Below are positions 50,711-55,462 of a stretch of 64,000 bases of DNA, piece by piece. The translations under genes and the position numbers were made by a program. A model generated the notes under the pieces. It saw only the letters and a program-made list of their open reading frames with translations. It did no database searches and was not told where the DNA came from. Source of the DNA: a bacterium (GTDB lineage Bacteria; Armatimonadota; Fimbriimonadia; Fimbriimonadales; Fimbriimonadaceae); assembly GCA_027485645.1 (NCBI GenBank), contig JAIXQR010000002.1, positions 124,001 through 188,000 on the forward strand, in the 5' to 3' direction. Within the stretch, counting starts at the first letter, position 1, and each line of letters starts with the position of its first letter.

Positions 50711-51742
50711 TCACGCGATCAGCTTTCGAAGAAGCGCGATGGTGAACTCTGCGAGCTGCGGCACTGCCTTGATGTGCATGATTTCGAGCCCGTGCGAGTT
50801 CTCCATCGGCAATCCAAGCGTGATCGGTCTGGCGCAAAGGCCATGCGAAGCGGCGCAAGAAGCATCGCTCCCGCCGCGAGAGAATGCCTGATATTGTAAA
50901 GAGATGCCCGTAGACTTGCTGATTTCGTCCAGCAAATCCGCATCTGCGGCGGTCGTCTGGGAGTAGCTATCCGTCATCCAGACCGTCGGCGAAGCCGAAA
51001 TTTCAACGGGAGCGTCTGGCACGTTTGCCCCGAGTTCAAGCGCGATGCAGATATCGGCCGGATTTCTAGTGAGATGGTAAAGCGCGCCTTCTCCACCAAC
51101 CTCTTCCGATGTCGTCGCCAGGAAGGTGATCGGCGCAGAAACGTCTTTGAAAGCGTCCAGAACAATGAGCCAGGCTGCCAAGTCCGCGCGATCATCCAAG
51201 AACCTGCCCGCGACATGATTCGGCATCGAGATCAGATCACGTGAGGCAACCGCGACGACCACGCGCGTGCCTACTCGAACCCCAGCTTCTGCAAGGGCAC
51301 TTGCCGGTACTCCGGTAAAGACTTCCGCGTCGTCCCACTTTAGGGCACCGTTCCGCGCCCGCACCGTGTTGCTGCGCGGATCCTCGGTGTGAATGCTGCC
51401 AAAGCCAAGAATCCCGGGCAAAGTCGCGTTCGATCCGAGCACGTCAACCGCGCACTCGCCCAACTTCCAAGGATGCAAGCCCCCAAGCGCGCGGACCTTC
51501 AGTTTGCCGTTCGGCAATACGGCCGTGACCATCAGCGCGATTTCGTCAAGGTGCGCGGTGACAACGATTTGGTTAGGTTCACCGAAAGAAACCTTCAGGT
51601 TTCCCTTGCCATCAACGGAACTCTGGAGCCCCATTTCCGAAACGTAACCTGCCACCACGTCTCGAATCGCTCCCTCCTGCCCCGGAGGTCCGGGGGCTCG
51701 GACCAGACTTTGTAAGACCTCAAGCGACGCAAACCGACTCAT
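50711..51742 (-). CDS. M42-family aminopeptidase
   Basis: The 343-aa cytosolic metallopeptidase has the di-metal set: HLDEIALMVT (His), LDDRADLAAWL (bridging Asp), the catalytic Glu pair of TTSEEVGGEGA and the final His in SHGLEIMHIK; the residue usually Asp in strand IAxD is Glu (ALELGAN). The ATG at 51742 overlaps the lnt stop in TGATG. Such enzymes trim peptides from the N-terminus as large tetrahedral complexes. Confidence 0.88.
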   Translation of the reverse strand: MSRFASLEVLQSLVRAPGPPGQEGAIRDVVAGYVSEMGLQSSVDGKGNLKVSFGEPNQIVVTAHLDEIALMVTAVLPNGKLKVRALGGLHPWKLGECAVDVLGSNATLPGILGFGSIHTEDPRSNTVRARNGALKWDDAEVFTGVPASALAEAGVRVGTRVVVAVASRDLISMPNHVAGRFLDDRADLAAWLIVLDAFKDVSAPITFLATTSEEVGGEGALYHLTRNPADICIALELGANVPDAPVEISASPTVWMTDSYSQTTAADADLLDEISKSTGISLQYQAFSRGGSDASCAASHGLCARPITLGLPMENSHGLEIMHIKAVPQLAEFTIALLRKLIA

Positions 51743-53229
51743 CAAACCACCTTATTCTTTCCACGGTTCTTTTTGCCGTGAGTTGGGTTAGAGAAGCGGA
51801 AAAGCACTCCCGCCCAAAAGAATCCGAGGGAGATCACCGGGAAGGCCAGCGTGCCAATGAAGCTCGATGGCTGCTTCGGAACCGGGAGCTCGACCGACAT
51901 CGCCGCTGGCGGCCCGATCGGAGCTTCGTCAATCACAACGCCTCGTCCGGTCACCGCGAAGGTCGCGCCAAGACCGCCGACTCGAGCGATTGGATTGCCG
52001 GTCTCCACTGCGCGCCAAACCGAGGCGGTCCGCAACTGCTCAATCGCCGGCGTGCCCATGAACCAGTCGTCAATGCTCATGACCGCGATCATGGTTGTCC
52101 CCGAGTTGCTGTGTCGCCAAGCGATATCCGGAAACAGCGCCTCGAAGCAAAGAATCGGGCCAACCTTTCCAAACGGCAACGTGAACTGCTTCAAGCCATC
52201 TTTGCTCTCTTCCAAATCTCCCGACGGCAAGTTGAATCCAGCCGGCAGGTATTGGCGAAACGGCACGAACTCACCGAAAATGACGAGGCGCGTCTTATCC
52301 GCGTACTTCCACGATTGGTTGTTGAACAAGAAAGCGCTCTGGAAAGTCGGCTTCTTGCTGCGCTGACCACCGAAGAGTACGGGCGTACTCTTTGGCAAGA
52401 AGAACGGAACCGAAGGCGGCATCGTCGGTGCCGTTGTAATCCCTTCTGGCATCACAATCAGGTCTGGCTTACTGTCTAGCGCAATCGGAAGTAACTCGCC
52501 AAAGCGCGAGAGCAACCGCGTGAATTCCGTCTGAGGATCGCCGAAGGCAAGATCCTCGCCGGGCTGCAGCAACCCAACCCGAACCGGCTTCGTCTCCGTT
52601 TGCATTGCGGCACGGCCGAAGTTCAGCGCCAAGTAGGCGGTAATCCAAACCGCCATCGCGACCCAGGTCCGTCCCTTCGGTTTTCCAAAGATCTCGGCAC
52701 CGAGGACGTTCACCGCAACAAGCGCGGCGCTCACCAAGAAAATCGTGCCGAAATAAGCCCCTTGAATGAACTCGGGATATCGTCCCAGCGGCGCCGCCAG
52801 CAGGCTCCAGGGGAAGGCGAGGATTGGAATGTAGGATCGAAACGTCTCCATTCCCGCCCAAACGAGGGGAATCATCCAGCCTTTGTCAGCTCGGTAGCAC
52901 TTCGCAATCGCCATTCCGACTAGGCCGTAATAAATCGCAAAGAGGATCGTCACGATCACCCACGGAATCGCTCCGTAAACCGGGCTGCCGGTCCACTTCA
53001 GAATAAAGCCAAAGACCCAAAAGAGCTGGCTAGCACCGTACCAAATTCCCATGCCATAACCGCTTTTCCAAGCCTGCTTGTGGTCCATCTCCCGGAGAGA
53101 TATCAGCCAAGGCACCAACGCTACCAACAGAACTAAGGCAAATCCGAATGGCGGGAAGGCCAGCATCAGCAAGATGCCAGTACCGAGCCCGGGTCCGATC
53201 TTTTTGAGAAGCTCCTTTCCTTTCTTCAC
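51742..53229 (-). CDS. lnt: Apolipoprotein N-acyltransferase
   Basis: The 495-aa inner-membrane enzyme adds the third acyl chain to lipoproteins. Six membrane helices cover about residues 15-215 and are followed by a nitrilase domain with the catalytic Glu (VMPEGITTAP), Lys (YADKTRLVIFGEFVPF) and Cys (ILCFEALFPD). A final helix closes the protein. Lnt is characteristic of two-membraned bacteria, and fits the several lipoproteins in this window. The GTG start overlaps the phosphatase stop in GTGA. Confidence 0.93.
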   Translation of the reverse strand: MKKGKELLKKIGPGLGTGILLMLAFPPFGFALVLLVALVPWLISLREMDHKQAWKSGYGMGIWYGASQLFWVFGFILKWTGSPVYGAIPWVIVTILFAIYYGLVGMAIAKCYRADKGWMIPLVWAGMETFRSYIPILAFPWSLLAAPLGRYPEFIQGAYFGTIFLVSAALVAVNVLGAEIFGKPKGRTWVAMAVWITAYLALNFGRAAMQTETKPVRVGLLQPGEDLAFGDPQTEFTRLLSRFGELLPIALDSKPDLIVMPEGITTAPTMPPSVPFFLPKSTPVLFGGQRSKKPTFQSAFLFNNQSWKYADKTRLVIFGEFVPFRQYLPAGFNLPSGDLEESKDGLKQFTLPFGKVGPILCFEALFPDIAWRHSNSGTTMIAVMSIDDWFMGTPAIEQLRTASVWRAVETGNPIARVGGLGATFAVTGRGVVIDEAPIGPPAAMSVELPVPKQPSSFIGTLAFPVISLGFFWAGVLFRFSNPTHGKKNRGKNKVV

Positions 53230-53840
53230 CGTTCAAACTCCTCGCCTAAATGCTGCAAATCGTTGAGCCGTCTAATCATATAGCCGTAATCGTTTCTTCG
53301 CTCAAGTTCCGTGACGCCGGTGTTGCCAAATCGGAACGAACGGCAAGTCTTGACCGTGGCAAAGATCATCCGCGCAATGATAACTCCCGCCGTGCCGCCA
53401 TGCGTGACGATGAGCACATTGCCGGACATATTTTCGATCTCGTCGAGCACCGGTCCAACCCGATTCCAAACGTCCTCAAACGACTCACCGCCTGGTGGCC
53501 GGATCTCCGAACTGTCCAACCCGGAGTTTTCGCCTAAATCCCGAAGCGCGGCGTGGAGATCGGTAAAGTGCCTCCCCTCCCATTCGCCAAAGCTGCGTTC
53601 CCGCAAGTCCCGTCGAATTTCCACCTTGGTCCGCACTGCGGCTTCATAAGTGGCAATCGTTTCGCGACACCGCTTGAGGTCAGAGCACAGGATCCGATCA
53701 ATCGGAATCTTCAAAAGGTGGTCAGACAACAACTGCCCCTGACGTCGGCCATCGCCGTTGAGGCTGATATCCGTGTGGCCCTGGGCGTAGCCGTGCCGAT
53801 TCCAATCCGTTTCGCCATGGCGGACAATAAGGACCTTCAT
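53226..53840 (-). CDS. Histidine phosphatase family protein
   Basis: The 204-aa protein has the branch-1 signature VLIVRHGETDWNRHGYAQG with the phosphorylated His, RDLRERSFGEWEG, and the second His of VTHGGTAG. It is a phosphoglycerate-mutase-like phosphatase; the sequence fits CobC/GpmB-type enzymes rather than glycolytic Pgm. It is coupled to lnt by a 4-base overlap, but a functional link is not apparent. Confidence 0.88.
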   Translation of the reverse strand: MKVLIVRHGETDWNRHGYAQGHTDISLNGDGRRQGQLLSDHLLKIPIDRILCSDLKRCRETIATYEAAVRTKVEIRRDLRERSFGEWEGRHFTDLHAALRDLGENSGLDSSEIRPPGGESFEDVWNRVGPVLDEIENMSGNVLIVTHGGTAGVIIARMIFATVKTCRSFRFGNTGVTELERRNDYGYMIRRLNDLQHLGEEFER

Positions 53841-53887: not shown

Positions 53888-54814
53888 CTACACTTGCCAC
53901 GGTCTCGCCTCCGGCAACTCGCGGCCCAAGCGATCAACTTTGATCGACCCGACTTTCAGAATGGGGATCGGGGTGGGCGGAACGGCGGTGGCTCGTAGCT
54001 TCAAAGATTGCTGCTCAAAGTCGATATCCTCGATGAATCCGATCCCAATCTCCTCCCCGTGCGATCGAGCTAGGCCGCAGAGCAAGTGTTGGTAGGCCGT
54101 ACTGGGAACGACGTGCAATTTCGGCACGTGGAAAGAATCCAAAACGGCGGAGATATCTTCTTCCGTCGGCGAGTCCGTCACGATGGCAAAGGCGCTTGAA
54201 GCGGAAACCTCAAGGTGCAAGCACCACGCCAGCCCAAGCTTGCGCCGCTCCTCAAACCCGATTAACTTCCCGGAGCCCAATCGAAGACCTTCCATCGCGA
54301 CCGAACTGAAGGTCAGCTCGTGGTCGAACGAATCGTCCCATAGTCGCATCCAGTGCGCTTTACGCTGAGCTTCAAGAACCTGCGGGGTTAGGGAAGCGGC
54401 CAGTTCAACTGGCTCGGGTTCCGCGGGAATACCCCAGCCGCCGAGAGGAACCTCGCAGCGTTCACTCACGATCAGCTCGTCGGGGTTCAACAAGCGCAAC
54501 AGCAACCGCATCGTGTGCGCCAGAACGGGGCTAGATCGAAAGCTGGGCAGCAGCACCATGCCTTCCCGAAAGTGCTGCTGCGCCTCAGCCAGCGCCGCAA
54601 CGAGCACGTGCGGAGAGCGTGAAGGGTCGAGCGAACCGTAAAACCGCGTCCAAACCGGAACCTCGCCTCGATACAAGGCCACCTGTCCCGGTGGGCCAAG
54701 ATTCGGTTCATTTGGGCTGAGACACAGCAGATCGGCTCCACCTAAATTCTCCCGCAGCCAGTGTCGCCAACTGTCTGCGGGTGACCCGATCAAAGCCGTG
54801 ATTCCCACGATCAA
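53888..54814 (-). CDS. Clp1/Grc3-like protein lacking a P-loop
   Basis: The 308-aa protein is unlike its neighbours but resembles Clp1/Grc3 polynucleotide 5'-kinases along its length: LGPPGQVALYRGE (39-51) at the place of the D-x-D/GQ-x-x-PPG segment, RFYGSLDPSRSP (57-68) at the FxGdxSP site, the arginine-rich lid around residues 150-190, and a C-terminal beta domain (243-300; LLCGLARSHGEEIGIGF, ILKVGSIKVDRLGRE). The Walker A lysine is missing: the expected GxxxxGKS is IGSPADSWRHWL (9-20). It may be a pseudo-kinase that binds RNA or partners. This is inference from pattern only. Confidence 0.5.
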   Translation of the reverse strand: MIVGITALIGSPADSWRHWLRENLGGADLLCLSPNEPNLGPPGQVALYRGEVPVWTRFYGSLDPSRSPHVLVAALAEAQQHFREGMVLLPSFRSSPVLAHTMRLLLRLLNPDELIVSERCEVPLGGWGIPAEPEPVELAASLTPQVLEAQRKAHWMRLWDDSFDHELTFSSVAMEGLRLGSGKLIGFEERRKLGLAWCLHLEVSASSAFAIVTDSPTEEDISAVLDSFHVPKLHVVPSTAYQHLLCGLARSHGEEIGIGFIEDIDFEQQSLKLRATAVPPTPIPILKVGSIKVDRLGRELPEARPWQV

Positions 54815-54838: not shown

Positions 54839-55462
54839 TTACCAATTATTGAAGTGAGCCAGCGTTTCGGCTGGAATGCGCTTCACTCGGGGAAGCAGTG
54901 TGACCTCGGGATTCAGCTTGCCAATGGCTACCAGCAGCACGGGAATGTGCGTCTCGGGAAGACCAAACTCGGCAATCACCTTGTCGGCCTCATAGCCGCC
55001 CATCGGCGCGGTGTCCCATCCTGCGTTCTTGGCGGAGAGCATGAAAGTCATCGCCCAAAGGCTCGGTCCTCGGAATGCCTCGTCTCGCTCGACTTGCTCG
55101 GTTGGCCAACCTCGCTTTGCGCTGGCAATCCAGCGCTCGCGGCGATCTTCGCCAAAGTAGCCGCCCGCCATGTTCGCATCCGCAACGGTTTCGGCGTGCT
55201 GTTCCGCCGCTTTCAGGTTGCCAAGCACGATCACCACGGCGCTGGCTTCGCTGATCTTCTTCTGGTTAAAAGAAGCTGCCTGAAGTCGCGCCTTGGCTTC
55301 GGGAGTGTCGCAGATGATGTACTCCCACTGCTGCAAGCACATCGAACTCGGCGCAGAATTGGCCGTGTTCAGAATCTCCAAAAGCTCTGAGCGATCTATC
55401 GTGACCGAAGGATCGAAAGACGGCACAGATCTGCGCGCTGAAAGCACATCGAGAAATTCCAT
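54839..55462 (-). CDS. Nitroreductase family protein
   Basis: The 207-aa FMN-dependent reductase opens with the phosphate-binding VLSARRSVPSFDPSVTIDR and has the NSAPSSMCLQQWEYI loop and the C-terminal LPETHIPVLLVAIGKL PR segment characteristic of NfsB/RdxA-type enzymes. It reduces nitroaromatics, quinones or flavins. It lies between the Clp1-like gene and a 116-base gap before moxR, in which I see nothing convincing. Confidence 0.88.
   Translation of the reverse strand: MEFLDVLSARRSVPSFDPSVTIDRSELLEILNTANSAPSSMCLQQWEYIICDTPEAKARLQAASFNQKKISEASAVVIVLGNLKAAEQHAETVADANMAGGYFGEDRRERWIASAKRGWPTEQVERDEAFRGPSLWAMTFMLSAKNAGWDTAPMGGYEADKVIAEFGLPETHIPVLLVAIGKLNPEVTLLPRVKRIPAETLAHFNNW

Follow-up and report, generated by a model that had tools for sequence, protein, structure and literature searches.

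A conserved Clp1/Grc3 descendant without a P-loop in Armatimonadota and its putative non-catalytic function

Introduction

Can a polynucleotide kinase whose nucleotide-binding loop has disappeared persist in a bacterial lineage as a conserved protein, and if so, in what capacity? This question is raised by an open reading frame from a member of the Armatimonadota, located in the window, that is, the whole 64,000-nucleotide stretch of DNA analyzed here. An earlier note, made from the letters of this DNA, had read the encoded protein as a conserved but inactive relative of the Clp1/Grc3 polynucleotide 5'-kinases that might bind RNA ends or regulate a partner, and had seen little context in the neighboring genes. 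Its account of descent, P-loop loss, and conservation has held, whereas the binding of RNA ends is now disfavored and the verdict on context was wrong.

Bacterial Clp1 has been described as extremely rare, occurring in 14 of 1,543 species, in a study whose main text leaves Armatimonadota unmentioned (PMC6777427). Contrary to this published rarity, Clp1-family genes occur nearly throughout Armatimonadota: at a threshold of E 1e-15, a family member was recovered from 208 of the 291 genomes searched. The fold family itself is already known. Among open-access papers, we found none on Clp1 in Armatimonadota and none describing a lineage-wide bacterial Clp1 pseudoenzyme that lacks the P-loop and has its intermediate stages preserved.

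Results

The open reading frame is real (Table 1), and its true start is probably the GTG at the third codon, opposite the ATG of relatives in the alignment; residue numbers of the pseudo-kinase in alignments and models begin at the second codon. Upstream, the nitroreductase gene ends in a TAA (54839–54841) that is in frame with this reading frame, which comprises 316 codons from stop to stop and can be extended upstream by at most eight residues. Therefore, a P-loop concealed by a wrong start is ruled out.

Table 1. Features of the pseudo-kinase and neighboring genes, in window positions
Feature	Position	Strand	Remarks
Clp1/Grc3-derived pseudo-kinase	53888..54814	minus	308 aa from TTG 54814; probable start GTG 54808
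P-loop equivalent, G-S-P-A-D-S-W-R	54764..54787	minus	Walker A GxxxxGK[ST] in intact homologs; alignment columns 47–53
Conserved Trp in place of the catalytic Lys	54767–54769	minus	W15
Walker B Asp position	54716..54718	minus	D60 of intact forms; Ser in window protein
Clasp equivalent, LLPSFRSS	54530..54553	minus	D-T-x-G-x-V-x-G in intact homologs; motif lost
R150, sole lid arginine kept	54362..54364	minus	R200 equivalent; 100% of window's family (55/55)
R-L-G-S-G motif, C-terminal domain	54269..54283	minus	R177, G179, G181 invariant in window's family
C-terminal P-W-Q-V	53891..53902	minus	W in 96% of window's family, 6/6 of sister family, 4% of intact forms
Histidine phosphatase, branch 1 (CobC-like)	53226..53840	minus	Downstream neighbor; catalytic RHG, E, H present
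Apolipoprotein N-acyltransferase (lnt)	51742..53229	minus	4-nt overlap with phosphatase; third gene of conserved order
Nitroreductase-family gene	54839..55462	minus	Upstream; neighbor only in few close relatives

Searches with the pseudo-kinase as a single sequence found no match in Pfam, NCBIfam, or PDB. The window protein did not match the Pfam profile CLP1_P, and only 2 of 55 members of its family did, with a best E-value of 0.082. A comparison of PDB sequences with a profile of the P-loop-less family returned only weak, short, and unrelated matches. Thus, the kinship of the window protein with Clp1/Grc3 becomes visible only via its relatives. Among the 151 genomes searched, homologs were found in 68 of the 85 belonging to the window's family (f1) and, as longer proteins, in further families within the same order and phylum; the nearest public record (L001) is labeled Armatimonadota and bears the NCBI name Chthonomonas calidirosea. 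Intact homologs from other Armatimonadota families matched CLP1_P in 23 of 23 cases (best E 4.6e-42) and also matched Clp1, NOL9, and GRC3 in PDB. When the profile of 55 window-family proteins was compared with that of these 23 intact forms using hhalign, the two aligned end to end over 305 columns (E 6.5e-39). The blocks named in the earlier note fall where it had placed them relative to the intact Clp1-type homologs: IGSPADSWRHWL aligns on GxxxxGK[ST], LGPPGQVAL on S-E-x-G-P-P-x, and FYGSLDPSRSP on F-x-G-x-x-S-P.

Structural modeling with AlphaFold2 yielded pLDDT scores of 96.4 when all relatives were aligned and 95.7 when the alignment was restricted to those lacking the P-loop. Against human CLP1 (8hmy_E), the all-relatives model gave Z 20.5 with an rmsd of 3.0 over 232 aligned residues, and the family-only model gave Z 20.4, with the Clp1/Grc3 fold spanning residues 1–297. 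The possibility that intact relatives in the alignment had imposed the fold was rejected, as the family-only alignment gave the same result. For both models, the best matches were 16 Clp1/Grc3/NOL9 entries with Z 16.5–20.5 (Foldseek was also run), and the next unrelated fold, that of the SRP GTPases, reached Z 8.7 over residues 1–139 only. The pseudo-kinase is accordingly predicted to keep the complete two-part fold. Its likeness to Clp1/Grc3 (E 6.5e-39; fold Z 20) is far beyond chance, and the window protein descends over its full length from a Clp1/Grc3 polynucleotide kinase but has lost the P-loop. The two outcomes that the earlier note had named as fatal to its reading, no Clp1/Grc3 match in profile or fold searches and a P-loop under a corrected start, were both looked for, and neither was found.

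Active-site motifs were defined as in PMC6777427. In intact forms, G30, G35, K36, D58, D60, Q63, D129, R196, and R200 are invariant; of this set, only the equivalents of D60 (93%) and R200 (100%) remain in the window's family. Walker A is present in 88 of 88 intact forms, in 5 of 6 members of a sister family (f5), and in none of the 61 window-family records, which represent about 60 genomes since two records are probably from one; the loss noticed in the window protein is therefore real and extends to all orthologs of its family. The P-loop glycine and lysine occur in 100% of the 23 intact forms, and tryptophan replaces the lysine in 95% of 55 window-family sequences. The window protein itself reads GSPADSWR at the Walker A pattern GxxxxGK[ST]. 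At Walker B ([D/E]hhQ), it has S-P-N-E, with serine at the D60 equivalent and glutamate three residues on in place of the glutamine, which is not kept in the family. Variable residues occupy the clasp ([T/S/L]xGW) where intact forms have D-T-x-G, and the lid (RxxxxR) has lost its first arginine (R196) and kept its second (R150). The established mechanism of Clp1 is the ground on which inactivity can be deduced from the loss of motifs. With Walker A, the Walker B glutamine, the clasp, and the first lid arginine all gone, ATP-dependent kinase activity of the window protein would be very unlikely.

The sister family helps to order these losses. Five of its six members retain the P-loop; D58 is replaced by asparagine, and Q63, the clasp D-T-x-G, and R196 are gone. 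A tree built by a quick method, without bootstrap, grouped f1 with f5 on the same side of a branch supported at SH-aLRT 99, the two families themselves receiving 89 and 95. Because f5 is the well-supported sister of f1, the clasp and lid would have been lost first and the P-loop second: the Walker B glutamine, the clasp, and one lid arginine appear to have disappeared before the two families split, and the P-loop later. Read in this way, the loss appears ancient and stepwise. The P-loop-bearing f5 proteins (L032, L033, L034, L042, and L049), in which the clasp, Walker B glutamine, and first lid arginine are lost, are probably an ATP-binding, non-kinase intermediate. The tree requires the P-loop to have been lost twice: on the f1 stem and, separately, in the sixth f5 protein (L035:4829-5773, genome G096), where the P-loop lysine is gone (GAPGSGHR). 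Another sister-family locus (L199:3522-3761, genome G100) holds only a C-terminal fragment before the phosphatase, which represents a pseudogene or an assembly error.

This order of events bears on the suggestion that the protein binds RNA ends. A dead polynucleotide kinase could still bind RNA, perhaps at 5' ends, and steer other RNA enzymes, as its Clp1 ancestry and the universal retention of lid residue R150 (55/55) would allow. A polynucleotide-kinase fold has likewise turned non-catalytic in hnRNPUL1, whose dead PNK domain still binds RNA and nucleotides in human cells (PMC13066744). However, that domain is PNKP-type rather than Clp1-type, is inactive through the change of one catalytic aspartate to asparagine, and keeps the Walker motifs that the window's family has lost. 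Moreover, the RNA- and ATP-contacting clasp D-T-x-G and first lid arginine were gone before the P-loop. That the RNA clasp was the first to go makes RNA-end binding less likely, and we regard this role as rather improbable.

The surrounding RNA-repair setting also seems reduced in the window's family, which argues against the same role. Most families other than f1 contain canonical full-length RtcB (at 284 bits or above); it was not seen in the f1 genomes listed, G000 included, and the only RtcB-family matches there scored 240 bits or less. Outside f1, the 2'-5' RNA ligase/CPDase family is present almost everywhere; inside f1 it is patchy, and the window's genome lacks it. The link is not a strict one, since canonical RtcB is missing as well from some genomes with an intact kinase. 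These patterns hint that the kinase may have become idle once the RNA-repair pathway shrank, in one lineage and perhaps in one event. The RNA-ligase family PF09414 was considered as a partner, and its occurrence was sporadic, without a pattern. In six genomes (G089, G093, G097, G109, G129, and G142), RtcB genes were matched in two pieces (1–50 and 46–426) within open frames of approximately 950–1060 aa, suggesting an insert such as an intein.

Conservation of the P-loop-less protein, as the earlier note had proposed, was borne out. By simple NG86 counts, with dS close to or beyond saturation for some pairs, dN/dS was 0.053 against an 89%-identical ortholog and 0.04–0.06 in three other close pairs, compared with 0.016–0.044 for neighboring genes. 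Purifying selection on the pseudo-kinase is strong. The ratio of mean pairwise identity in the kinase half to that in the C-terminal half falls from 1.14 in intact forms to 0.91 in the window's family, suggesting that constraint has moved from the kinase half to the C-terminal half. Eleven residues are invariant in 55 window-family sequences, including R150, W154, R177, G179, G181, E201, G288, and E298, and most lie in the C-terminal half; the arginine of the R-L-G-S-G motif is found in only 43% of intact forms.

No genome of the window's family contains a CLP1_P match above the cut-off, and the pseudo-kinase is single-copy in nearly all of them, a few copies being split by contig or frame. 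Consequently, no active paralog covers for it; a second, active kinase was sought in the window's own genome and none was found. A gene in slow decay would account for its absence from 17 of 85 window-family genomes, some of them nearly complete, as well as for a single short and divergent copy of 269 aa (L063) and the sister-family fragment L199. Nevertheless, the low dN/dS in all four close pairs, the lack of internal stops in the matches, and the 11 invariant residues make decay highly improbable. Alternatively, the nucleotide cleft could have been remade into the active site of a different enzyme around W15, R150, R177, and E201, given the conserved polar residues R150, H164, R177, E201, and E298. 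However, these form no catalytic-looking motif, there is no invariant cluster of Asp, His, or Cys, and E201 and the R-x-G-x-G glycines are common in intact forms too and so look structural. A new enzyme is therefore improbable, if less so than decay; another small-molecule or nucleotide site in the pseudo-kinase is possible.

Contrary to the impression of little context, a histidine phosphatase is conserved beside dead and intact forms across the phylum. The window's copy matches PF00300 (E 2.8e-52), and its identification as the CobC alpha-ribazole phosphatase was rejected at 130.6 bits against the TIGR03162 cut-off of 162.9. Among the 57 window-family loci with sufficient flank, the phosphatase adjoins the gene on the same strand in 43, and phosphatase plus lnt in 42. 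Both follow the gene in 6 of 6 sister-family loci, and at 27 of the 81 intact-kinase loci, drawn from 15 families, the phosphatase comes next without the lnt order. The gap between the Clp1-type gene and the phosphatase is mostly under 70 nt. Phosphatases beside the dead kinase mostly carry RHGQT and those beside the intact one mostly RHGET; the window's own copy carries RHGET. In the complete single-contig genome G051, lnt appears to be divided between two frames (C1:436436-437826; L206 and L207), reflecting a frameshift or a sequencing error.

These adjacencies, together with the retained catalytic residues of the phosphatase, would fit a dedicated regulatory or targeting subunit of this presumably co-transcribed enzyme. 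However, 14 of the 57 window-family loci have the gene and no adjacent phosphatase, and most inspected genomes without the gene (about ten) keep phosphatase and lnt, with unrelated genes upstream. As the phosphatase stays by lnt in such genomes, it does not depend on the pseudo-kinase, and we consider a dedicated subunit a tentative possibility. The association is old and outlived the death of the kinase, yet it is not obligate. A diverged or shortened copy upstream of the phosphatase in gene-less genomes was also considered; the reading frames there were unrelated by eye (LemA-like, ABC ATPase, AAA ATPase) or antisense, and family profiles run against them found one C-terminal fragment, in the sister family, and otherwise only such matches as a shared P-loop would account for.

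Discussion

We consider it quite probable that the window protein is a pseudoenzyme, a former kinase whose C-terminal domain lets it serve, independently of nucleotides, as a scaffold or regulatory subunit. Such a role fits a protein in which selection has preserved the entire fold and constraint has shifted C-terminally. The ancestor would have been an active polynucleotide 5'-kinase of the Clp1 type, present nearly throughout Armatimonadota. The Walker B glutamine, clasp, and one lid arginine would have gone first, in the ancestor shared with the sister family; the P-loop would then have been lost in the window's family, its lysine giving way to a conserved tryptophan. The resulting protein would act through the C-terminal residues R-x-G-x-G, E201, GEDFG, and PWxV. 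Catalysis would play no part. Regulation of a partner, as suggested in the earlier note, is possible, and the neighboring phosphatase is the leading, unproven candidate. The link to the phosphatase is not obligate, since 14 of 57 loci lack it and phosphatase plus lnt outlast the gene, which counts against the scaffold reading. As for the partner, our guess of a complex that dates back to the kinase, perhaps with the histidine phosphatase of the same operon as a member, is a doubtful one. Equally speculative is the fuller scenario, in which a kinase was converted stepwise, through a P-loop-only form to a nucleotide-free one, into the scaffold of an as yet undescribed bacterial complex, with the phosphatase probably among its members.

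Comparison with known systems places the protein within a familiar fold. Through the intact Armatimonadota forms, it is homologous over its full length to CLP1_P and to Ts-Clp1 of Thermus scotoductus, likewise with a single copy; however, Ts-Clp1 is an active RNA 5'-kinase with Walker A, Walker B, and clasp motifs that the window protein lacks (PMC6777427). The family-only model also resembles Grc3 (Z 18.6 to 8puw_B) and NOL9 (Z 16.7 to 9dun_A), which are active kinases working with Las1 in a nuclease–kinase complex. Clp1 of Saccharomyces cerevisiae has no kinase activity and acts via protein contacts (PMC3245249), providing a precedent within the family for a non-kinase role. Yeast Clp1 binds ATP and has retained the P-loop that the window protein lacks; the sister family, with its P-loop kept and its clasp and first lid arginine lost, is the nearer parallel.

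Because the active site has been erased and the protein has long been kept intact, it probably performs a non-enzymatic, previously undescribed job. If so, the Clp1 fold would serve a conserved non-catalytic function in bacteria, paralleling its role in mRNA 3'-end processing in yeast. One lineage of Armatimonadota would preserve all the steps of the conversion beside relatives with intact motifs. It would thus offer a natural experiment on what Clp1 proteins do besides phosphorylating RNA, a question raised by the kinase-less Clp1 of yeast.
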